NCBI GenBank assembly: GCA_903813345.2
Contig: CAIIXF020000002.1
Location: forward strand, 22,642,455 to 22,706,454
Source of the DNA: Owenia fusiformis
Taxonomy: Eukaryota > Annelida > Polychaeta > Sabellida > Oweniidae
Reading direction: 5' to 3'
DNA: 64,000 nucleotides
The translations under genes and the position numbers were made by a program. The notes beneath the pieces were generated by a model. That model was not told where the DNA came from and searched no databases. It saw nothing but the letters and a program-made list of their open reading frames with translations. Positions 37,701-61,525 of the stretch are shown here, in pieces. Position 1 is the stretch's first letter; the number at the start of each line of letters is the position of its first letter.

Positions 37701-40700
37701 TTCATTTCACTGTAAGTTACATAAAAATTAAGATGATGATAAGGACTATTTCTTAATCTATGGTTGCTATGGTAACCTCAAAAAGATACAGCATTTTTAT
37801 CAAAAATTCTGGATTGGCCTTTGTATGTTTGGGAATAAAAATCAGATAATTTAAGTAGTTGTTCGGGAATAAAACTTTTTTATGGCAACAGATGTAATTT
37901 CAGTTCAAATCAATATAATTTCCCATCCCTTTACATATTATAACCTTTCCAATGGTACCAAAATCATTTGTGAGTCAATTGAATTTTAAATTCCAGTCGT
38001 TTTTGGTTTCCCAGTCAGCTATCATACTAATACATGAGTATAAAAAAGAGGATCATTTAGGGTCTCTGATTTTTGTCCTAAAGATGTCTTCGAAAATCAG
38101 AACAAACTATTTTTGCTCGAATATTCATGTTTGACTAGTATATCTTGCCATATTAATATCCCATTCCCAAGGATTTTGAATATCACAAACTTTTGTACCT
38201 ATTTTTCTATTAAAGGTCTGATCTCTTATTATAGTAGGTACAGGAATACATTTCACTTTTGCAAATATTATTCTCATTTGACTCTCTGGCAAATGTAAAA
38301 TAAAACAAAGACATAATATCAATTTGCTGAACAGATTTTCTGATAATTTCTTCATCAGATGCTTCGATATCCTGTGAAAAGACTCAATTATCAGCATTTA
38401 TCACTGCAAATTTGTTTTTAAATATCATACTGATATTTGATCAGGAAAGTGTCTTTAATATTACATCCTGTATACTGAATTACACGTTTTCTGCTTAATG
38501 GCAAAATAACTCAAATTATGGAACAAATTATTGTAGCTTCATAACTATAACAGTTACATTATGCTTCAAAGCTTGATGCGAGCCACTTGGGAGCGAAAAG
38601 TAGCAGAAATTCTTTGATTCTTTAATTTGAAATTGAATTTGCACGAGCAATATTGGAGAAATTATTGGAGTTTGTCCTCAAAGGGGGATTATATTGATTG
38701 TTAGATCACCGTAGATGCTACTGATCGATTGATCCTCAAATCTTATTGGAATATTTTACTCTATTGGGTAGATTTTGGTATCTTTGCTGGATCAGCAATT
38801 AATATCAAGGAAATTATTATTTCGCTCATTGTTGATTACTTTCAGTTTTTTCTCACTTCCTCCAAATGCAGGACTGCAGATATTATTCACTCTGTTCCTT
38901 CCTGGAGGATTGATGTTTGGAGTATGTTGGAGAGTGTGTTCTGAGAGAGATAGTTTAAACTTTTTTGATGTAGTAGGTCTAGGCCAGAAGTCCAGGCTCT
39001 GGAGGAAACAATAGAAGCAATTATCAAGTGGATTACTAGGATATATTTGGAATAAAATTTTACAGCAAGACTGACGAAAACGATGAGCAATTCTAAGAAA
39101 CTAGAATAGAAAACCAAACAAAAATCAAATAAGTTTCAGATTCAGGAATAATTGGGAGGATATACTAACATAGGGAGTTATGAGAAGTATGAGGAGATAT
39201 AGTTGTCCGGGTGGTAGGATAGGTGGTGTACCATCTGTGATCTTAAGGGACGTCTCCTCAGCATCTAACCTATCCCAGGTAGTCATAGCAATATGAGTTT
39301 GCCATAGCAACATAATTGTTATAGCAGTATTATGAGATGTCATAGCAACAGTAGATTTTTCATAAAACACCATACATGTACATGAATACTATTGTTGATT
39401 TTAAGGGTTACCAAAAAAGGTTAACATTTAACTATTTATAAGTGGAATTATATTTCAGAACAATAGTATTTGTTGACATAGCAACATAATATTATTGTCA
39501 GTTTTGAACATTTGATATCAAAACAGCTGTTTAATCTGTGGCTAAGTGCTTTTTCAATTCTTGGATGAAATTTTCATTTTATTCAAAAATCAGCATTACA
39601 AATTAATAGACTTTCTGACATTCCTTTGAAAATATTCTGACCAAGTTTTGAACATTTATTCAACATATTTTTATTTATTCAAAATTAGAATTCATTTTTT
39701 CAACAACATTAAAAAATCTTCAGGTTAATACAAATGTTCTGGTATTTGATTGATGAATTGATAACTCCTTCAAAGTTTAACAGCACATTATTTTTACATT
39801 TATTTTTCAGGTACCAGAGCTGTTTAGTGCAATAAGGGAAGCAACCAAGGATCTAAAGGACAATCCAACAATAAAGACCGGCCGATCCTTCGATGATTTA
39901 CAAGATCGCACAGGAAGTCAAGTTTACGAGGTTCTATACACTGGTAAAGTTACGGTATCTGAGAAAAAAGCGCCACCTACTTTTATCGATATTGCAGTTG
40001 AACAATTTAAGAATCATGAATTACAGAGGGAAAGGGCGGAAAGACGTCGCAGGAATAGCAGTGGAAGTAACGCAGGTTTACGCTCTCAGGAAAATGGTAT
40101 CCACGATAGTCAATCAATGTCGAAGCTGTTGTCCCGGAGTCAGGACGATCTACTTGATGGTTCTGATAATTTTAATAACAATGGAACTGGAGGTTTAACA
40201 GATTCAACTGAAGTAAATCCAAAAACTAAAATCATTGCCTTAGACAATATCAGCTTGGCTGGTAGTGTTTTTGGGAGCTCCCAGGATGAAACTGACGCTC
40301 AAAATGAATCTAAACCAAAACAGGAGAAGACTGTTGCTAAAGAAGGGAGGGTTAGGCGTAACAGAACAATGGTGTTACAGATTGGTAGCACAGATTTATG
40401 CCTCGTTAGTCCAGATAAGAAGAGTATTATACTAGAAAGAAGATTTAAAGACATTTCTTTCTGTTCACAGGTATGTATATTTAAAGCCTTCTCCCCCACC
40501 CTTCAAGCTCACCGCTATCTCCAGAAAATCTAAATCTAAATAACAAATACCAGTAATCCAGTATGACAATTATGCAGTGATTCCATTTTTAAAAGTTGCT
40601 CTTTCTTAATAATTATATTGAAGAGCAATGAAAAGCACAATTGCTCTGCTTTGGTTGAGAAGATCAGGCTCGTGGCCAGCTGTTTCCAAGGCTTCACTTT

Positions 40701-43700: not shown

Positions 43701-46700
43701 GGCGGACATTTTTATAATTATGTTACCTCTGGGAGGCTAATTCAAGTATGGGATTAAGAATACAGTATCTGGAAACAATCGCTCTGTAATGCAGATAGAG
43801 AATTTGAGATATAGAGCCAAACAAGTGCCCAGTGGCACCAGGGAAGTATAGAGCCAGAAGAGTAGTAATATGATAGAAGCATATTATCATATGAGATGCA
43901 TGGTGATATTATGGAAGCATAGTGGCATAATTGAAGCATATTGGCATAATTGAAGCATGGTGACATTATGGAAGCATAGTGGCATACTTGAAGCATAGCA
44001 GCATTCTTGAAGCATGGCGGCATTATGGAAGCATAGTGGCATACTTGAAGCATAGTGGCATTCTTGAAGCATGGTGACATTATGGAAGCATAGTGGCATA
44101 CTTGAAGCATAGCAGCATTCTTGAAGCATGGCGACATTATGGAAGCATAGTGGCATACTTGAAGCATAGTGGCATTCTTGAAGCATGGCGACATTATGGA
44201 AGCATAGTGGCATACTTAAAGCATAGCGGCATACTTGAAGCATGGCGACATTATGGAAGCATAGTGGCATACTTAAAGCATAGCGGCATACTTGAAGCAT
44301 GGTGACATTATGGAAGCATAGTGGCATACTTGAAGCATAGTGGCATACTTGAAGCTAAGTGGCATAATTGAAGCATAGTGGCATAATTGAAGCATAGTGG
44401 CATAATTGAAGCATAGTGGCATACTTGAAGCATAGTGGCATACTTGAAGCATAGTGCCATACTTGAAGCTTAGTGGCATAATTGAAGCATAGTGGCATAA
44501 TTGAAGCAAAGTGGCATAATTGAAACATAGTGGCATAATTGAAGCAGAGTGGCATAATTGAAGCATAGTGGCATAATTGAAGCATAGTGGCATAATTGAA
44601 GCAGAGTGGCATAATTGAAGCATAGTGGCATACTTGAAGCATAGTGGTATAATTGAAGCATGGCGACATTATGGAAGCATATTGGCATAATTGAAGCTTA
44701 GTGGCATACTTGAAGCATAGTGGCATAATTGAAGCATAGTGGCATTAAAGAAGCATAGTGGCATATTGGCATATAGATGAATATACACAGTGAGGTCCAA
44801 TAAAAAGGGATAAAATGAAAATTGTAAGTTGGGATGAAAGTACATAGAGCTATGATAGAAATACAGAGGCAAAATACAAATTAAGAATCAAAGCAGAAAT
44901 AGAGACATAATAAAGATAGAGATGCACAATACAAAAACAGATATAGAGGCACAGAAAAAAAAAATATAAGCATGATGCTGATATAAAGCAAAGAGACCAA
45001 ATGAAGAATAAAGAGGCACTAAAGCAGCACTATGCAAATAAAGACACTGTTTCACCTAGGAGATAATACAAAAGAACAACAGAGAATACAAAGCAAACTG
45101 CAATAAGCAAGATAAAAGTTCATTTAACATTAATAATTCAGAGAGTAAATGATTTAATGAAAAAACACACTTCTGAGGCATAGTATGAGAAGCAATGAAA
45201 CAAGGTGTTATAGTCTTTCCAGGTATTTATGTACTTTGAAATGATATATAACTTTGGGTATTACAGGAATCAAAATAATTATTACATAAATAACAATGAA
45301 TATGACATGAATAACAATGATTATGACATGGATAACAATGAATATGACATGAATAGCAATGAATATGACATGGATAACAATGAATACAACTCTCCATGAC
45401 CAGACAGGATTTATTTTAGAACATTCGTATCAAACGGAAAGAAATATTTATTGTCTGAAAAACTATTTATTGTCAGGAACTCTCGATAGCAGGTGAATCT
45501 CGATGAGTTGATCGGTTAGGGAGGTAAATTGACTGGATTGATTAATGTCTTGATCGTGCTCTGAGGAGCTGTGGTCAGTAGATAATCATGGATCATTCCA
45601 ATGTAAAAATTCAGTTTGATGAGGTAAGCAATGCTAATTTCCTGATACTCACAGTCCACTCCTTGGTCTCTCTATGAATGCCTGATTCAGTCAACCAGTT
45701 TTTTGTCATGGCTTAAAATATGGTGACATAATGTTATATCACAAATTTTTACACTATTTGGACCCCTATATTATGTCACCCCCACAATTGATATTGTTAT
45801 GAACTTTTTTGTGACGGTGGTTAGTGGTCGGCAGTCAGTGATCGGCGTTTGGTATCTGTTGCAGTTTGCAATAGTTACAAGGTGGTGACATTTTATTGCT
45901 GTGTTAATACCAAGTTTGAATATTTTACGCAGGGTATGTAGTTATGTCACCACTAAGAATTTTTGCGACTCCAATTCAGCTTTGGCTTTGACTTTTTACA
46001 GGAAAATTAATGCAAAGACTAACTTGAAACCTTTACATTAAACACATATAGACATGTTATACGAATAATTGATTTCTGGCAATCTCTGTTTCTATAGCAA
46101 CAAATTAGTGGGTTTAAGTAATTAAATTAGTAATTCAAATTGTAATCCATTAACTCAATAGTTACATGGTACAGGGTACAGGTTACAGGTACATACAGAT
46201 ACTCACATAGGACGCATCTATAAATGGGACCAATGTTTATATCTGTTACCATTGCAACTGTTACCATGGCAACAAATAATTTTGAACAGTGTTGTAGTAT
46301 TTGTAGGATAGTGAGGATAATTTGAGAAGTAATATTCATATTAGCTTAGCTTTGACTCTTTCAAAAGCTGCCACTAATGTTTCTAACTTTGGCAGTCTAT
46401 ATATTTTTTGTATATATATAGGTTATTTACTGGGAGGGATTGAATATGGGTTTTATTCCGAGGGACAATATGATATTGACCGAAGGGTGATATGATATTG
46501 ACCGAGGGAGCGCAGCGACCGAGTGTCAATATCATATTTCCCAAGGTCAATATCATATTTTCCGAGGAATGAAACCCATATTCAATCCCGACCAGAAATA
46601 ACCTATTTATTCCATAATACATTCCTCTAAAATGTCACATTTTGAAAATGCTTTTATCAATTAGCTAAGGTTAAAAATAACAGGAAAACCAAAAATAGGT

Positions 46701-49700: not shown

Positions 49701-52700
49701 TAAAAACACTTTGAAATACTATTTAAAAGGTGGTATCTAAATGTCAAAAGAGTTGAAAGAAAAAAATTAATTGTATAAGGGGAGGGGGGGGAATTTTATG
49801 CAAATATGATTAATTATTGTTTTAACATTTTTTATATGGGAGGAAATATTATAACAAACCATAATAAAATTTACTTTATTTGGAGACTCTTTCTACACCC
49901 CCAATTCTCACTCTAAAATCATGGTACCGTACGGTACATTAAGGGTGTGGTACCGTATGGTACCATTGGAGTATAGTGGCGTACAGTGTTCATGGTACCG
50001 TATGGTACCTTTTTAGTCTATGGTACTGTACGGTACCATATTTCATGGTAACATGCAGTACCATTTCTGAAACGGTACTGTTGCAAATTGACTGTGTAAT
50101 CCTGCTGTTGTCTGTTGTAGGCATGGCACCTGAAAAGATATTTGATGTTATCCAGGCCAGGATAGATCAACTTGGAGAGAAGGAACAGGCGGAAATTGTT
50201 ACACGATTTAAGGTAAAATCTACTTGTAGGATCATTTCTTCACTACCATGTCATGCTCAGTATCCTCTGCGCTGTATGTAAGCACATCGAGTTGTTCATA
50301 TTCCAACTTATATTTCTGTTCGAGTTTAGTTTGTTTTCTTCTTCGGAGAAATTTTTGATTAAATATTTTGTTTGCTTTTATTTTCAATGATAAGTAGTTT
50401 TTACATATTTCGTTTTTACTTATGTGTTTACTTTTTTGAGTACAATAGTTTACATTATTTATGTTCTTTAATATTTCAGCTTTATTGGGATAGAATATTG
50501 AAGGTTTGATGATGATTTTTTCTATGTGTTATAATAACTTTACTTCCGTGTGCTCCTTCCCTACTTCTGAAACTAAGATACAATTAAAAATAATTCAGAA
50601 TAGCCTACTGTGAGTTGCACCATTAGTAAACTTTTATTACACTTAATTTTTTGAAGATATTAGAGCTTGAAAAAACTGCTTGCATAGTAAATGAATTACT
50701 GTACTGTAATTTGCATTTAGAAATATAAGAAGTGCATCTACACTCTGTAATTTGCACATGTCATTTTGCTTATTAGATGACCATTTTTCTAGCCTTGGTA
50801 TTTTCTAGAGGTGTCACGGAAAAAATCAGAGTGGCTCAGTTCGGAATTAGGCTTTGGAACGTAACAATTTCAGGTTTGGGACATAGTGACTTTGTGTATT
50901 AGATTAGAAGAAGTTGATTGACTAGTTCTGTCTGGTAGCGAAGATTCAATGAAAATGAGTGAAAAAGATGAACTTCTCTCAGAGCAAAAAATTGAAAGAA
51001 AAATGCAGTTTTATGGCAATTTGAGGGCCAAAAATTTTTCTTGTTCCATAACTGAGCTGAAATGTTGACTTTTTGATCTGGTTCTGAGTGCCTAATTCCG
51101 CAGGTCATAACCAAATCTGTTGCACTGGAAAGAAACTGTAATAAAGTATGCTAATGATGCAAATTAGAGGCTGTAATAAATAAAACAAAAATCTAGGGTA
51201 TTTTAGAAACAGAACCCTTTAAATATAAGGTATTTTAGCGTGAAAATGACATCAGAGTTTAAACTTTTACTTTAACTTCTATCATTCATTAAGAACTTTA
51301 AGGTAACTGATTAAGGCGTTTTGTGTGTCTATTTTCCCTTCCATTCCATCTGCATTTAAAAGTGTATCCTCCCAATTCTTTTATACTGTTCTGTATTTAA
51401 TGTGTCTAATTCAATATTTCACCCTTTCATTCTTGTAAGATGTATTAATATATATAATCTTTTCATATATGTGAATCCCTGTGTTTTATAAAGCTTTATT
51501 TTAAAATTCAAAATGAAGTGTTGAAGAAATGTAAAACACAGACCTCCAGTTAAGGAAGGCAGAAGGCAAAATGGGCCAAAAAATTGCATGAGAAGGACCT
51601 GTTACACATAGGCCCTAATACTGGCATGAAAACCTTTGCACTTTGCCTTTCTTAAGCAGCAGGCAACAGGCGATTTTTGCTGGTTGTTTTCACAAAATCG
51701 CCTGTTGTTTTTAGAAACGTTCAACTTTTCCATGTTAAAGGACCTTATACACCCTCCATTGGGATCTCCCCATGAGAAAAAAATAATTCATCTGATTTTT
51801 CAAAATAAAAATACTGCTTTTATTATTACATTTATATGTACACTAGTATCTTTTTGACCTATATTCAGCACTGTATTGATGAATGGGCCACTTATTAGGG
51901 CCAATATTCAATCATAAAGTGTACAGGGGTCGAGATGCCAAACCAGGAAGTGTTTTTGTGTCTGTCAAAATCCATTTGCATCCTACACATCCCTACATCT
52001 TATCCAAATATGTTATTAATACATGAAACATAACAGTATAATCTTTGGATTTACAAAGTTGTATGGGATTTCATAAGTGTAAAAGTTGCTTTTGAAGCAT
52101 TTTCCTATAGCCATTTTGTAGGAAAAAAATGATGAAAAAAATGTCTAAGCCTTTAATTTGAAGTATGACCTGAATCGATTGCAAACTTTATATTTGCACA
52201 TCTGATGTGATATACCATTTGTGTCATATTGTGAAATTATTTAATTTGCAATCGATTCAGCACTGCTACCCACCTAATTACACAGACGTATCGTCGGTGT
52301 ATCATGGCGGAACTTCCTCCGGGACTAGGTTTCGGTAAGATTTTTTTATTTCCCGATTTACACCTACTTATAAGTCACGTTGTGGATAATAATTTGGCTT
52401 GAAGTTAAGGAATATAGTCTAGTTTGAGAATGTGTCGATGGTTTTAGGTTTTATATGTTAACAAAGACACAATTCACGTATTTAGTCCCTCGCTTTTCTT
52501 ACACTGACGATCGGCATTAATATTGCCAATATTACACTGACATTGGTCGTTCGTCAGTGTAAGAAAAGCGAGGGACTAAATACGTGAATTGTGTCTTTGT
52601 TAACATATAAAACCTAAAACCATCGACACATTCTCAAACTAGACTATATTCCTTAACTTCAAGCCAAATTATTATCTACAACGTGACTTATAAGTAGGTG

Positions 52701-55700
52701 TAAATCGGGAAATAAAAAAATCTTACCGAAACCTAGTCCCGGAGGAAGTTCCGCCATGATACACCGACGATACGTCTGTGTAATTAGGTGGGTAGCAGTG
52801 ATTCAGGTCATAGTGTATTTTAGGTATTTTTGTGAAAATCAATAGAAACCAATGGCCTCCATTGGAATCTGATGATATCCACATGTTAAGTCAATGGAGC
52901 ACATCCAATGGCAAGTCAATACACCCTTGCTGAACTTAATGACCTCAACCTCAGCCCATGTGGGTCCAAACGCTTAAATATTTTCCACAGTATTATATGA
53001 CATTGTATTCTTTATGTTACACCTAAAAATGATTCATTTTGTTCATGGGGAGATCATAATGGCGGGTGCACTAGATCCTTTATGATTTCCATCAACTTGG
53101 CCTCTTGTTTTCATTTATTGAGCCTGTTGTGAGAAATTATTCTAGTGAAACGCCTGCTTTAATATATTAGAATTGACAGACTTCAGACATTCTATGGTAA
53201 ATTGATGAAGTTTTTTAATATTCCTTATTATATGCCTATTTCAAAACATTAAATAAAGAAGAGCAAATAGGAAAAAAAGAAAGCCTAAATGACTCATCCC
53301 CTCATCAAAAATTAATGAATGTTAAACACTTATTCACTTATCTTTGCCTTAGGCCCTGGGATTGTAAAGCATTGTCATGGTGACATTAAAGAATGAGTAA
53401 TCAAGTCTTTATTTCCTTTAATCCCCATGACTTTAATTTTCAGTAGAAGCATTGTCAATTGTGGTGATATAACAGATTATTATGAGTTTTTAGAGTAAAC
53501 GGTTTAATGTTCACTATCGTTAAGGAGGATTAGATCCCAGAATGCAATCTCGATATTTTCCATTTATGAACTGGTTATAAAATTATATAATAAGCAAACC
53601 AACAGATTTGAGCTAATTATCTTGATCACTTCTTGTGCGTTTTGAATTTTTTGTTATTTGATAATGCCAAAACGCGCGATTCAAAATTTGAGGTGAACAT
53701 CGCAACATCCTTCAAGATCAGATTAATTGTTGGAAAATATTGAGTTGCGTCCCTGAGATCCAGTCCTCCTTTCTGTCATATTATTATCTTACTTTAAAAG
53801 GATAGGATGTCACAGAAATGCATTATGTTTATGAAACTGTGTGGAAGTGTCATTCGTTGGGATTCATTACTTTTGGTAACATAACAGTATCCCACACATG
53901 TTTTTGTTGAATATTTAAATAGTATATTTATTCAGAGATCCAAATCTAATTTGATATCTTTCTGTAGTCAATCAAAGGATAGCTACAAAAACAAAACAGT
54001 TTTTGAACTTTCTTTGGTGCAATAATATAACATATATTTAGATAAGATTCTTATATTACACATGTCGATATAATACAGTCTCAAACTGCAGAGGTTATCC
54101 TTGGATGATTTTTTGTGATTTTACAATTCAGTGATTTAGATTTTATAATCCAGCTCTATATATGACATTGATATTTCCCATCAAGTAGCGAGATTGCATG
54201 CTATCTAACTATCTCATCAAAAACCTGTAGAATTTCCTCAATTCAATAAGCACCGCTATAATCAACGATAATGGAAAACATAATTTGTGACATTTTCGAA
54301 GTAGATTTCAAGCTAGATCGAATATTGAATGTGAAGTTGATTGAGCTATATACTGTTTATTACAACATTGCCTCTGGAATAGCTAGGGGTCAGTTTAATG
54401 AACTCTACTTCCAACAAAATGAAACCGCAAATGTTACTTCAACATATTCGCCAAAATCGCTGAAAAAAACAAAAATCAAGGGCATCATGAAACAGAATAG
54501 CCATTTACCTCACCCCCTATAAAATATTTGAATCTCACAGATATTTTTATTGTAAATTTTATATGTCGACATGAAACGCCCGGGAAGGAATTCACCCCAA
54601 CCTTGCATATGAATGTATGATATAAACCTATAAGTTAAACAAAGCAATCCCTCAATTGTATCTGAGAGAATTACTAAGGTACTAAATTCAGTTTCATCAG
54701 CCAACGAATCATCAGCAAGAATACTGCTTATTAAAAAGACAGAAATGATTTATATATCCCAAGTGTCTCTTAGATGTAGGGAATTAGCCAAATCAACCAA
54801 GATAATATTTCGAGTACATGATTGATATTGTTTTTCCTCACTTTCTTCCACATTTTCAAAACAGGTATTTCCCTTGCGGCATCATGTTTTACCATATTTT
54901 TAAATAAGGAGAACATAATAAACAGGCTTATCAGACACTTTTCCGAAAATGGGGTGCGCTTTCACAATTTTCACCGGAAGTATAACCTCAGAGATGTGCT
55001 GATTTCAAGTCTATTATGATCGCTTAATTTACTTAATTTGATAATGACCTCAATATTACATACAGGTGCAAATTTTAAAAACAATGTAAATAGCAAATGG
55101 ACAAGATTGTAGGGTGAGATCACACCCAACGTACCCCCCTAATCTGATGGTCCTGTTGAAAGATACAAGGTCCTTTAAAGACACCTTTCATGTTATTGAG
55201 AAATTTTATTTTCTTGATCATATCTGATATCAGACTCCACAATGATAAATCATGTTATTAGGCTGTTCAATTTAAGCTACAGGCATATTATATATGCACT
55301 ACCATGTAGTGTTCTCTCAAACAATTTTCAGGATTCTTATTTTCACAATTCAGATTGATCAGAGTTACAATGCTCTTATTTAATGTTGTGTTTACAGGAG
55401 GTAAATCCCCAGTGTTCCTATGTTCTTATTTCCTAATCTTGTGTTTACAGGAGGAGAATCCCCAGAGTTATGAGGAAATGAATGAAGTTCTGATGTCATC
55501 GCTGAGACAGATTTGTGAGGCAAGGCAACAGGAACATGTCCACATTAGTGCCTATAATGAAGAAAAATCGAAAACATCTGAGGTTAGTCAGAAAACAGTC
55601 ATGCATGCTATTAGCTATGCTATGTACATTTTCTATATTATTGCAATGAACTGACTGATAGTCCAACACCTTTACATTACATTAAGGCCTGCTAAATTTA

Positions 55701-58700: not shown

Positions 58701-61525
58701 TTTCCCTGGCGCCTCTGACAATACAGAAACAGGATTAACCTGTTGCTCAAAAGAGTCCACCTATAAGTCCAAAATCCATGTATGAGTTTAAAATGAATAA
58801 AAATGGATTTTTATCATTAAATAATTTGGCAGGATATAATTCACAAAAATACCAAGTTTAGAATGTGTTCGATAAAATTAGGAGCCAATCTGGGAGCATA
58901 CCAATGAACCTACCAATGAACTCAGGCCTTACCCACAACAGGCCAAGCTTTAACATAATCACCCGACCTCCTCTTAAGCGTAGCTAAATCTTGAGTCTTT
59001 GTACTTTGTCTTTAGACATCACCTTCTGGGAAACGGTCTCCGGGAATTCCATCTCCAAAGAGATCACCATCTACAGAAGGCAATCCAATCCTCGACACAA
59101 TCGTGAATGAGTCTCGGCGCCCGAGAAGTTCGACGATAGGAAGTACTCTGGATGATAACCAGTTGAAGGCACTCCAGCATTCTAGACTGCTTGAAATTAA
59201 AACTGAACAGAAACAGGATAAACCTGTCGCTCAAAAGAGTCCACCTAGAAGTAGAAAATCCATGTAAGATTTTAAAGTGATGAAAAAAATTTTATCATTA
59301 AATAAATTGGTAGGATAATTCACAAAAAATTCTCTCATAACTACCTGTATCGCAAAAAGCAGAATTTGCTTCAGAAGATTGGCAACACTGTATTGTATTG
59401 TACACATTGTATAGACATGTACCTAATCTATAATATGTAAAGTTTTAGGCAGATTAAGGCATATGTAAAGTTTTAGGCATATGTAAAGATTTAGGCTTTA
59501 GGCAGATTCAGGCATATGTAAAGTTTTAGGCAGATTTAGGCATATGTAAGGTTTTAGGCAGATTTAGGCATATCTAAAGTTTTAGGCAGATTGTGCAGAT
59601 TAATGTTATTATTACAATCTGATAATCATTTTCAGGTTTATTCAAGCAAGTGCTCTTCCTGATGGAAGTCACATGAGTTCAGGTTCTACTTCTCCGTTGC
59701 TATCCCCTGGGTCAGGCTGCACAACCCCTGCTGAGCACCACACCCCACCAGAGACCCCCACAGGCCATGATGCAGCAGAGACCAATCAGGTCACTCCTGC
59801 TGCTGGTGAGGCACGTCGCAGACGGCAGTCATACAGGATGGGGATATTCAACAAAGTTGTGACTCCTGCAAGACACAGTCGTAGAGAATCACACAGTATA
59901 ACAGGTACAGCATTGTGAATTGTATTGCATTGATGTTAATCTATTCTCCACATTTATGCTGGAAAACATACTCTAATACTCTACGTCTTCATTAAAGTTC
60001 CATAAAGTCATACTGTATGTTTTGAGATATACTGTGGAAATGTCGGTACAATTCTGCTGACAGTAAGATTTTGTGTGTACCAGAGCAAAGGACTAGTCTC
60101 GGTTTGGAAAACGAAGTTTATCAGTCTACTGCACGTTAGGCCTGCTTGGACAATTTTGATACTTTTACATATTATAGATTTAAATGTTTTCTTTTGAATA
60201 TGCATAATTTAATTTGGGTGTTATTTCTACATTTTTCATAAAAAAAATTATTAGCCGAGTAGACTCTTCTCCAAACCGAGACTTGTCTTTTCAACAATTC
60301 AGTTGAGTCAATTTTTCACCAAAGTTTTCACCAGGATACATACCAAATGGATGAACTACACAGAAACTAAGTGTAGTAGCCTGAATATTAGGAATATTTT
60401 TGTTTGATTTTAGATGATTTACTGGAGAATGATCCCTGGCATCCACCTGAAGGGAGAAGGTTCTCCTGTAAGGAAGACATCCATATGCTTTGGAAGAAAG
60501 CAATCCAGGATACCATACTGCTGATCAGAATGGAGAAAGAGAACCACACTCTTCAAGGTATGTTTTGATTAAATTCCCTTTAATGTATTCACTTTTCAAA
60601 AGCCTTCCAACTTTAAACATTCAGGCAAAGTTTTTTGTGATCATAAGCCCCTCAAGGTATACATTAAGATGTCAATTCATGGCATCATTTCAACAGCAAA
60701 CTTTATAGCTACCATGGTGCTGTTTGAATTAGTGATAATACGAAATCAGCAAAAGCCTATTTCTCAACACATTTATCCTACAGCACATGACATTGAATTC
60801 TGTGTTTTTTCAGTGTTTTTAGGGCTTGTTTTTTCTAGCTTCACTAATATTGCTTTTTGAGTATACCATGATTCATTCATTGGTTGAAATAACTAATTTC
60901 ATTGTGAAACAGGCAGCATTTTTGATGGTGCTACAGCTTTTAATAGTTGGATCCTTGCGGTCAAAGGTAGGAATTGAGCAACAGTGTTATCATGATGGCT
61001 TATATAATCGTGTGTATAATAGTCTTTTCGTGTGTAGTTTTTGTCACCTTTGTAGTTTTTAGGTAAGTTTAAAGATGCAAGCTACAGTCAAATGTCATTT
61101 AGTTGCTTGTATTGTATTGTGCATCTTGTGTGTTTTAGGTTCATCACATTGCTTCATATTTGTATCAATACTTTACATTATAGTCATTTTTTTTGTATCT
61201 CGAAATTGCTATTGTCTCATTTCAAAGCCATTATGAATAGGACCTCTCTTATAGTTTCAGCATTTCACTTTGTATAGATGTCATTTGAGTTATGTAGGAA
61301 ACACCAATCATTTTATGTATAGATGTCACTTCACTTCAGAGGGGGATATTTCCCATGAGCCTCTCTGTTATTAACAACTTATTTGTACCATGAGAGAAAA
61401 TTCTTTGATGGTTTATGTTTAAAGACATCCTTTACTAAAATTGAAGTTTGTGTCACATTTAACAGTTCAATCAGCCCATGATGACCTGCAAACAATGGGA
61501 ATGCTGTATGAATCGGTATCAAGGG
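28362..61525 (+). CDS. TBC1D1/TBC1D4: TBC1D1/TBC1D4 (AS160) homologue, coding exons 1-12 (3' part outside window)
   Basis: A Rab GTPase-activating protein that restrains GLUT4-type vesicles until phosphorylated by Akt or AMPK (family knowledge). Exons: 28362-28709, 39811-40470, 41457-41552, 47224-47350, 50121-50212, 55451-55582, 57740-57841, 58237-58323, 59016-59263, 59636-59904, 60414-60557, 61466-61525. All are GT-AG with agreeing phases. First PTB domain about residues 14-130 ([20 protein letters not shown]). Second PTB about 150-411, split by a ~130-residue low-complexity insert ([16 protein letters not shown]; later [43 protein letters not shown]). Then a conserved helical segment ([17 protein letters not shown]), Akt-type sites and the pre-GAP block [17 protein letters not shown]. 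The TBC domain is not here and should start beyond 64000. Invertebrates usually have one gene for the vertebrate pair, so the D1/D4 choice is left open. Confidence 0.94.
29566..29936. mobile_element. 371-bp TACCCT-ended element, copy 1
   Basis: Ends TACCCTTTGCATTCG and, inverted, TACCCTGCGTTCAG. An imperfect 8-9-bp flanking duplication (AAATTACTG / AAATTACTT). Carries TGACGTCA and several CCAAT/ATTGG words. Very like copy 2 at 43085-43454. Confidence 0.8.
30589..30744. mobile_element. Pogo/Tigger-like MITE
   Basis: CAGTTGAACCTGTATAAG at the left and CAGGTTTTACTG at the right, flanked by TA. Repeated GGTGTTCTACTT inside. Confidence 0.75.
31860..32040. repeat. Diverged copy of the GGGTGCAAAATT dispersed repeat
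   Basis: Shares TTTACAATTC, AAAATGGTCAAAATCTGCCA and GTGCAAGCC with the copies at 34022 and 37014. Confidence 0.5.
34022..34200. repeat. Dispersed repeat, GGGTGCAAAATT family
   Basis: TTGATCTCCCCAGGATTTTT, then GGGTGCAAAATTCCC and repeated GTGGGTGCAAG words. Close copy at 37014-37215; an inverted fragment around 10280-10345. Confidence 0.75.
34970..35715. repeat. Minisatellite, ~31-bp units
   Basis: Units such as GCCCATATGGTCAAACATAT followed by CTATTTATAA, grading into GCCAATAGAGTCAAAACATG then TCTGTTTATAA, about 24 copies. A 114-codon frame inside (35368-35712) is repeat translation. Confidence 0.9.
36226..36392. mobile_element. Pogo/Tigger-like MITE
   Basis: CAGTGAAACCTGTTTTTACT at the left and CAGGTTTTACTG at the right, TA-flanked. 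Confidence 0.75.
36460..37300. repeat. Duplicated MITE remnants
   Basis: A ~190-bp unit (AATGTGAATGAGxTGTTCATTT to TTGACTTTGTCxTCGGG) occurs at ~36588-36770 and ~36780-36950, with a partial third at 37228-37295. The GGGTGCAAAATT repeat (37014-37215) lies between. Confidence 0.7.
39811..40470 (+). CDS. TBC1D1/TBC1D4: TBC1D1/4 exon 2 (second PTB domain, first part)
   Basis: 660 nt, phase 0 at both ends, after an ~11.1-kb intron. Begins [15 protein letters not shown] and continues FEVLF-type strands as [18 protein letters not shown]. It then holds a charged, Ser/Asn-rich insert with a basic RRRRNSSGS patch (Akt/AMPK-like), and resumes the PTB fold with [19 protein letters not shown] and [11 protein letters not shown]. 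Confidence 0.95.
40471..41456 (+). other. TBC1D1/4 intron 2
   Basis: 986 bp; apart from the degraded MITE nothing is recognised. Confidence 0.6.
40670..40803. repeat. Degraded AGGCCCGTAGCC-type MITE
   Basis: CGTGGCCAGCTGTTTCCAAGGC, then TTCACTTTTCAAAAAATTCT and CACTTGAAAAGTxCT, matching the interior of the complete copy at 46978-47172. Confidence 0.65.
41457..41552 (+). CDS. TBC1D1/TBC1D4: TBC1D1/4 exon 3
   Basis: 96 nt, phase 0. Encodes [20 protein letters not shown] and [11 protein letters not shown], the central strands of the second PTB domain. Confidence 0.95.
43085..43454. mobile_element. 370-bp TACCCT-ended element, copy 2
   Basis: Nearly the same as 29566-29936, flanked by ACTATATGG on both sides (a 9-bp duplication). 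It sits inside a pogo-like MITE whose right end is CAGGTTTTACTG at ~43533-43544. Confidence 0.85.
43910..44765. repeat. Minisatellite, 19-bp unit
   Basis: GAAGCATAGTGGCATAATT with variants (ACTT, GCGGC, GGTGACATTATG), about 45 copies. Three units equal 57 bp, so all frames stay open; the long predicted frames here are artefacts. Confidence 0.95.
45270..45395. repeat. 24-bp tandem repeat
   Basis: About five copies of AATAACAATGAATATGACAT followed by GGAT or GAAT. Confidence 0.85.
46421..46603. mobile_element. 183-bp palindromic MITE
   Basis: GGTTATTTACTGGGAGGGAT pairs with its inverse at the right (ATCCCGACCAGAAATAACC). Internal ATATGATATTGACCGAGGG pairs with CCAAGGTCAATATCAT. Confidence 0.85.
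46978..47172. mobile_element. MITE with CAGGCCCGTAGCCAGGATT ends, copy 1
   Basis: CAGGCCCGTAGCCAGGATT at the left and AATCCTGGCTACGGGCCTG at the right, 19-bp perfect TIRs, with a poly-G tract inside. Ends 51 bp before TBC1D1/4 exon 4. Confidence 0.9.
47224..47350 (+). CDS. TBC1D1/TBC1D4: TBC1D1/4 exon 4
   Basis: 127 nt, phase 0 to phase 1. Encodes [20 protein letters not shown], the C-terminal PTB helix, and the cysteine-bearing [18 protein letters not shown]. Confidence 0.95.
47655..47735. mobile_element. Internally deleted TACCCT-ended element, copy 3
   Basis: Keeps only TACCCTTTGCATTTGTTTGA to CTTCATCTTC, then TTTAACTAGACTCTGGACGC and AGGGT. The ~290-bp middle of copies 1 and 2 is gone. 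Confidence 0.75.
48831..48962. repeat. 33-bp tandem repeat, 4 copies
   Basis: GTTGAAAAATATGGGATAAT then TAAxTTCCAAAAA, in TBC1D1/4 intron 4 (47351-50120), which otherwise shows nothing distinctive. Confidence 0.9.
49918..50075. repeat. Cluster of GGTACC palindromes before exon 5
   Basis: GGTACCGTACGGTAC, GGTACCGTATGGTACC (twice) and GGTACTGTACGGTACC, in about 150 bp ending ~45 bp upstream of the exon 5 acceptor. Confidence 0.85.
50121..50212 (+). CDS. TBC1D1/TBC1D4: TBC1D1/4 exon 5
   Basis: 92 nt, phase 1 to phase 0. Encodes [17 protein letters not shown] and [12 protein letters not shown], a helical linker. Preceded by a cluster of GGTACC palindromes (49918-50075). Confidence 0.92.
52164..52812. 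mobile_element. Outer MITE into which the foldback element inserted
   Basis: Left TATGACCTGAATCGATTGCAAA at 52164 is the reverse complement of the right end obtained by joining TTTGCAATCGATTCAG (to 52260) with the bases after the insert (GGTCATA, to 52812). The pre-insertion element was about 100 bp with ~22-bp TIRs, cut in its right TIR. Confidence 0.75.
52261..52800. mobile_element. 540-bp near-perfect foldback element carrying a first-exon-like sequence
   Basis: Arms 52261-52510 and 52551-52800 are 250 bp each and differ at one base by my reading; the spacer is 40 bp. Ends read CACTGCTACCCACC, flanked by direct repeat ATTCAG (52255-52260 and 52801-52806), a probable 6-bp target duplication. 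Each arm holds, from 52304 (or inverted from 52757), an ATG followed by AELPPGLGF and a GTAAGA donor, looking like a 5' UTR, short first coding exon and intron start of some gene. I do not recognise the gene, and no continuation exon is nearby. Confidence 0.85.
55368..55470 (+). repeat. Duplicated 3' splice site of exon 6
   Basis: TGTGTTTACAGGAGGTAAAT then CCCCAGTGTTCCT at ~55387-55420 is repeated 53 bp later as the real acceptor TGTGTTTACAGGAGGAGAAT then CCCCAGAGTTAT. Confidence 0.85.
55451..55582 (+). CDS. TBC1D1/TBC1D4: TBC1D1/4 exon 6
   Basis: 132 nt, phase 0. Encodes [20 protein letters not shown] and [19 protein letters not shown], matching the family's EKQKEHIHI-type helix. Its acceptor is duplicated 53 bp upstream. 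Confidence 0.93.
56840..57018. mobile_element. MITE with CAGGCCCGTAGCCAGGATT ends, copy 2
   Basis: Left end as in copy 1. The right end is shortened to CTACGGGTCTG after a poly-G tract. TBC1D1/4 intron 6. Confidence 0.85.
57740..57841 (+). CDS. TBC1D1/TBC1D4: TBC1D1/4 exon 7
   Basis: 102 nt, phase 0. Encodes [20 protein letters not shown] and [14 protein letters not shown], the conserved L.KNKAKRSL.ESLE-like segment of the TBC1D1/4 linker. Confidence 0.93.
58237..58323 (+). CDS. TBC1D1/TBC1D4: TBC1D1/4 exon 8
   Basis: 87 nt, phase 0. Encodes [27 protein letters not shown] fits the Akt consensus RxRxx(S/T), like the main regulatory threonine site in the vertebrate proteins (inference from position and motif). 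Confidence 0.85.
58530..58860. repeat. Two degraded copies of the exon 9 3' end in intron 8
   Basis: 58536-58625 and 58722-58860 resemble 59195-59330 (exon 9 tail, donor and intron start): AAACAGGATxAACCTGT, GCTCAAAAGAGTCCACCT, AAAATCCATGTA, then TTTTATCATTAAATAA. The second copy has an in-frame TAA. Confidence 0.8.
59016..59263 (+). CDS. TBC1D1/TBC1D4: TBC1D1/4 exon 9
   Basis: 248 nt, phase 0 to phase 2. Serine/proline-rich: [20 protein letters not shown], then [10 protein letters not shown] (RxRxxT, Akt-type) and [11 protein letters not shown] at the junction with exon 10. Degraded copies of its 3' end lie in the preceding intron. Confidence 0.87.
59445..59600. repeat. ~30-bp tandem repeat in intron 9
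   Basis: GGCATATGTAAAGTTTTAGG then CAGATTTA, about five copies. Confidence 0.9.
59636..59904 (+). CDS. TBC1D1/TBC1D4: TBC1D1/4 exon 10
   Basis: 269 nt, phase 2 to phase 1. Pro/Ser/Thr-rich, then [17 protein letters not shown] and RHSRRESHS. In vertebrates the equivalent block (RRxSWRQxIFLRV) precedes the GAP domain and has been linked to calmodulin binding; calmodulin binding here is inference. Confidence 0.9.
60414..60557 (+). CDS. TBC1D1/TBC1D4: TBC1D1/4 exon 11
   Basis: 144 nt, phase 1 at both ends. Encodes [20 protein letters not shown] followed by KENHTLQ, nearly the family's LWQKAILQQILLLRMEKENQKLQ motif just upstream of the TBC domain. Confidence 0.95.
61466..61525 (+). CDS. TBC1D1/TBC1D4: TBC1D1/4 exon 12 (last seen in window)
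   Basis: 60 nt, phase 1 at both ends. Encodes [20 protein letters not shown], aligning with the short segment (..SRDELQ....LDYEE..) that follows the LQ motif in the family. Short and less conserved, so less certain than the others. Confidence 0.72.

Follow-up and report, generated by a model that had tools for sequence, protein, structure and literature searches.

Within a TBC1D1/4-type gene of the polychaete Owenia fusiformis lies a 540-bp foldback structure, each arm of which contains an ATG followed by an open frame and a GTAAG donor, as the initial annotation of the window (the whole 64,000-nucleotide stretch analyzed here) had noted. Do these strings represent the first exon of a host gene captured by a transposon, as was proposed there, or do they belong to the element itself? 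We conclude that the exon-like string most likely belongs to the ends of the element, and we assign a probability of about 0.87 to the reading in which the structure represents one copy of a foldback DNA transposon, non-autonomous and non-coding, that was moved in trans and acquired its palindromic form by the stepwise history proposed below.

The palindrome and its insertion site

The inverted repeat is real and exceeds chance by far: the predicted RNA fold of the palindrome has an energy of -470.5 kcal/mol, compared to -120.6 +/- 5.9 kcal/mol in 100 shuffles, and the structure is one among many copies in the genome. The arms had been read as differing at a single base; we count two mismatches, at arm positions 124 (52384/52677) and 251 (52511/52550). 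The coordinates of the features are collected in the table.

The element has a PTB-domain exon (39781-40530) on one side and a match to DUF3350 (60449-60556) on the other, both on the plus strand, which places it inside a TBC1D1/4-type gene, in agreement with the intron setting given originally. DUF3350, which we take to be a marker of TBC1D1/TBC1D4 proteins, had this sole match in the genome searched (498 Mb in 525 contigs, C1-C12 measuring 31.9-62.2 Mb), and the PTB exon queried against PDB sequences gave no match. Elsewhere in the window, positions 43757-44744 resemble a tandem array, with repeated open frames that are for the most part on the minus strand, and positions 2195-2872 contain a non-LTR retrotransposon fragment, as judged by a zf-RVT match.

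The insertion itself interrupts another repeat, which is very high-copy and young-looking. When the flanks were joined (202 bases) and searched against the genome, all 40 scored places (of 1046 first-look candidates) were 98-100% identical, with matches spanning all 202 bases in 38 of them, 200 bases in one, and 199 in one; four places elsewhere reach the full score. Two matching places that were read have the same repeat limits as the flank in the window. In other copies of this repeat the site is undisrupted and ATTCAG occurs once, so that the two ATTCAG copies bordering the element constitute a 6-bp target duplication, and the earlier view that they favor transposition holds. That undisrupted sites can be seen elsewhere reflects the high copy number of the flanking repeat; they are other copies of that repeat, not the same locus in another animal. 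A search of 51600-53500 against Rfam gave no match at the gathering threshold.

Table. Features of the element and its host repeat (positions in the window)
Feature	Position	Strand	Remark
High-copy repeat hosting the insert	51736..53082	+	about 800 bp without the insert; 46-bp imperfect inverted ends
Target-site duplication ATTCAG, left copy	52255..52260	+	
Palindromic non-autonomous transposon copy, subfamily BB	52261..52800	.	540 bp
Left arm	52261..52513	+	253 bp; B-type at 18/19 diagnostic sites in the BB consensus
Subterminal inverted pair ACACAGACG / CGTCGGTGT	52280..52300	.	element-own motif; right-arm mirror 52761-52781
Exon-like string ATG...GGTAAG	52304..52339	+	12 residues; end region, arm positions 44-79
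Spacer	52514..52547	.	34 nt; deletion junction common to the sister AB subfamily
Right arm	52548..52800	-	253 bp; B-type
Mirror of the exon-like string, right arm	52722..52757	-	
Target-site duplication ATTCAG, right copy	52801..52806	+	

A dispersed family with two arm types

A genome search with one arm yielded 770 first-look candidates; the 40 that were scored each had a best arm at least 98% identical. The 23-bp end (one position A or G) has 331 exact matches (163+168), and a reversed-pattern control has 0. The terminal sequences CACTGCTACC...GGTAGCAGTG are present in 25/25 tabulated two-ended copies (one with a single change), all of which were chosen for having both arms start at position 1; the family ends carry CACTGCTACCCACC. 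Among 56 full-length short copies, comprising 34 of subfamily BB (the window copy included) and 22 of subfamily AB, 48 carry a target duplication of 5 bp, 5 carry one of 6 bp, and 3 carry none. This set consists of loci with both ends recognizable 480-600 bp apart. Loci L009, L049-L057, L076, and L077 were excluded by name, and the filter also removed copies that were truncated or had a single arm, together with full-length copies whose ends had changed, namely, L061, L065, L067, and L072 (kept for the consensuses described below) as well as L082, L097, L110, and L115; 36 of the 40 loci of a later-fetched set were used. Mean divergence from the consensus is 1.03% for BB and 1.44% for AB, figures that represent a lower bound, since the copies gathered were those that best matched one arm or contained exact strings, and intermediate arms may have been missed.

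The family displays three features of non-autonomous TIR transposons of the MITE or foldback type: terminal inverted repeats with constant ends, target duplications of near-constant length (with an undisrupted site for the window copy), and numerous dispersed, similar copies without coding capacity. A Pfam scan of the 32-residue arm frame in the window returned nothing. The element is a member of a young, MITE-like, non-autonomous foldback family, new as a family but of a known kind, and the proposal that a young foldback element arrived by transposition is borne out by the family copies, target duplications, and undisrupted sites. Taken with the dispersal of the copies, the constant ends and the short target duplications suggest cut-and-paste movement by a transposase supplied in trans.

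The subfamilies differ in their arms. The two arms of the AB consensus differ at 19/253 positions, and those of the BB consensus at 1/253. All 22 AB copies have, with few departures, arm A on the left and arm B on the right; six of them carry B states at left-arm positions 49 and 73. Eighteen of the 22 had been fetched for a left-arm match to A, and their right arms were unselected. Comparison of the BB and AB consensuses, built from 14 and 8 copies, respectively, reveals 24 differing positions in the left arm, 7 in the right arm, and an identical spacer junction. The BB left arm has the B state at 18 of the 19 diagnostic sites, and position 251 alone keeps A. Most simply, these sequences can be read as the product of an AB-like element in which the sequence of arm B was written over arm A, with the end of the tract between 218 and 251.

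Longer relatives of about 2.1-3.6 kb have ends and interior in common; L009, L050-L053, and L055 are two-ended, and L054 and L056 are incomplete or interrupted. Two of these, L009 and L055, are B on both sides except for A-side positions 151 and 251, and the single-armed L062 is a mosaic with other bounds (A at 67, 218, and 251). Because of these long BB-type elements and the mosaic, more than one deletion or conversion event, or recombination between copies, is needed.

The exon-like string

The string ATGGCGGAACTTCCTCCGGG has 146 exact matches in the genome (76+70; reversed-pattern control, 0). We read 101 of them, counting identical contexts once and setting none aside for short flanks, and all 101 lie within the element. 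The element end upstream of the string is present within 8 mismatches in 96 and with a small indel, by our reading, in 4; in the remaining one (L002), the arm is truncated at position 31. No donor gene and no copy of the string outside the element was found among these 101. The sequence that had been taken for a 5'UTR is the element's own subterminal inverted pair, a form of a motif seen again at the inner ends of the arms and in L009; only 3 bases separate it from the ATG.

Variation within the string was compared with that in the rest of the arm. Arms A and B differ at 6/33 sites in the stretch 44-76 and at 13/220 elsewhere (P = 0.024), which leaves coding constraint on this stretch unsupported. 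Divergence within BB is 0.85% in the exon-like stretch versus 0.98% elsewhere (P = 0.64); within AB, the stretch evolves slightly faster (2.07% versus 1.35%; P = 0.044). The combination of an ATG, at least 8 open codons after it, and a GGTAAG or GGTGAG donor was encountered in 109/2000 arm shuffles on either strand, in 45/2000 on one strand, and in 161/2550 tiles of the window; the arrangement is uncommon but not rare.

Three other origins were weighed against a non-coding element whose ends happen to contain the string. Pack-type capture, in which a foldback transposon took up the 5' end of a host gene with its exon and donor, was suggested by the Kozak-like ATCATGGCGG and the open frame leading to GGTAAG in both arms, by the 55/68 BB arms that give the same 12 residues with the donor, and by the infrequency of such an arrangement in shuffles and tiles; the 45 exact matches beyond those we read leave it some room. 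However, its preservation in young copies is consistent with recency, the stretch varies more between arm types than the remainder of the arm, and four of the six A/B differing sites change amino acids, in two codons, by our reading of the consensuses. Pack-TIR and Pack-MULE elements are defined by a parental copy outside the transposon, and every occurrence read here is inside it. We consider capture very improbable, and the claim of a captured first exon loses its support. The string could instead be the true first exon of a lost or unseen autonomous element of this same family, the promoter and exon being housed within long terminal repeats. Both arm types, and most of the long elements aligned, retain the ATG and GGTAAG, and the string adjoins the outer conserved end, as this explanation would have it. 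Nevertheless, neither the 100 ends listed (of 331) nor the long relatives read revealed an autonomous copy or a transposase, the three longer reading frames scanned from the long elements yielded no transposase match and only two Pfam matches, both far below the cut-off, and the A/B differences are unlike those expected under coding constraint. We regard such an origin as unlikely, if less so than capture.

Long perfect palindromes are often misassembled, which would favor an assembly artefact or a local inverted duplication over a mobile element. For the family this is refuted by the undisrupted sites and by dispersed copies that have identical ends but differ in their target duplications, and we give the explanation as a whole a negligible chance. 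With no donor gene among the string matches read, the suggestion that a hairpin in the pre-mRNA could direct siRNA or RNA editing against the donor is without basis here, and a false lead of exon capture with possible RNA silencing is removed. The host transcript may itself form a hairpin.

Arm conversion, proposed history, and relatives

The initial annotation had raised conversion as one explanation for the near-identity of the arms, and the arms do bear its marks: arm A appears replaced by B, and private changes are mirrored between arms. General, ongoing conversion is ruled out, since the two arms of one BB copy differ by 2.15%, no less than the 1.91% that separates same-side arms of different copies; opposite sides of different copies differ by 2.28%. 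Conversion does happen at times in BB. Four of 53 private left-arm changes, in 3/34 copies, are mirrored in the right arm, compared to 0-2 (mean, 0.3) in 20 shifted controls; in AB, 0/32 are mirrored, and the shifted controls are all 0. The window copy holds two of the four BB pairs (140T and 153T), a sign of a second, smaller inter-arm conversion. Locus L046 shares the right-arm changes 388A and 401A with the window copy and does not have their left mirrors 140T and 153T, suggesting conversion from right to left in the lineage of the window copy. This direction is only probable, since L046, like two others of the 56 copies, has no target duplication and could itself have arisen by recombination.

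These data are consistent with the following history. Elements of about 2.1-2.4 kb with long, differentiated ends, arm A and arm B, would have been the starting point, moved by a transposase acting in trans that presumably makes mostly 5-bp and sometimes 6-bp staggered cuts. An internal deletion, by our reading at a 3-bp TGA microhomology, may have produced the 540-bp AB element, after which an inverted copy of arm B would have overwritten arm A, by inter-arm conversion or template switch, to give the near-perfect palindrome BB. BB then amplified, the analyzed copies standing about 1% from the consensus, and one copy inserted at ATTCAG within another repeat in the TBC1D1/4-type intron. In the lineage of the window copy, arm positions 140-153 were made alike once more, probably from right to left. 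It is conceivable, although we hold it rather doubtful, that inter-arm conversion is a recurrent by-product of the transposition cycle and that homogenized palindromes then amplify; the AB-to-BB replacement, the L062 mosaic, and the 140-153 tract of the window copy would then be successive instances of one process. This is an ordinary class of element with a neat record of arm conversion. Its young copies, with 19 diagnostic sites and one arm replaced, allow conversion between foldback arms to be traced at individual positions, and the BB/AB copy set bears on the origin of near-perfect palindromic transposons.

A search of the published literature found no paper on this family, which is no proof of absence. 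As described in the available sections of the papers, the Galileo two-TIR elements of Drosophila (P superfamily; PMC4168063, PMC3573991) likewise have long terminal inverted repeats, copies cut to two arms, many non-autonomous copies, and target duplications mostly of one length with a few 1 bp longer, and it has been proposed that long arms draw recombination and conversion, from which subfamilies arise (PMC3573991). Galileo, however, duplicates 7 (8) bp, has transposase-bearing copies, and has internally repetitive arms, whereas the present family duplicates 5 (6) bp, yielded no such copies among the ends and relatives read, and has arms of 253 bp. The foldback and MITE pair Tetris and DAIBAM of Drosophila virilis (PMC4079207), in the portion of that report consulted, also includes a foldback without coding capacity, a second element with the same ends, and an autonomous partner not found; it differs in its 8-10 bp target duplications and in its internal 220-bp arm repeats, and its authors place it in Mutator. 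Animal Pack-TIR elements similarly have DNA transposon ends with sequence between or within them that does not look like transposon, but that study demanded an identifiable parental copy without transposon association (PMC8277862), and none was found for our family among the 101 string matches read of 146.

The 5-bp duplication expected of Transib/RAG was found in 48/56 copies. Transib makes a 5-bp target duplication, and hAT elements usually make one of 8 bp, with subgroups having short duplications; the duplications of our family recall Transib or these hAT subgroups. The Transib/RAG end motif is CACNNTG, which the element ends, reading CACTGCT, do not fit. A RAG1 family search gave no match, with its control silent too. 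The hAT dimerization domain has 138 genome matches, 36 of them on C1-C3, and none of these 36 comes closer than 26.8 kb to the 100 ends listed (of 331). Neither search placed the family.

Five single-ended loci (L060, L063, L070, L071, and L073), considered as a possible autonomous element, have arm B in common up to position 174, and two of them have an insertion at about 148. In the two loci that were read further, the similarity extends 58 bases upstream of the end, so that in these the arm is a truncated fragment carried by a larger repeat; two copies of that repeat have about 5 kb in common, in three main pieces at 98.7-99.6% identity. Nested in L055 is a piece that looks reverse-transcriptase-like to us, with no Pfam match to confirm it. 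A separate small, partly palindromic repeat, nested inside the long elements (L009:1287-1554), occurs in many other places at about 78-84% identity.
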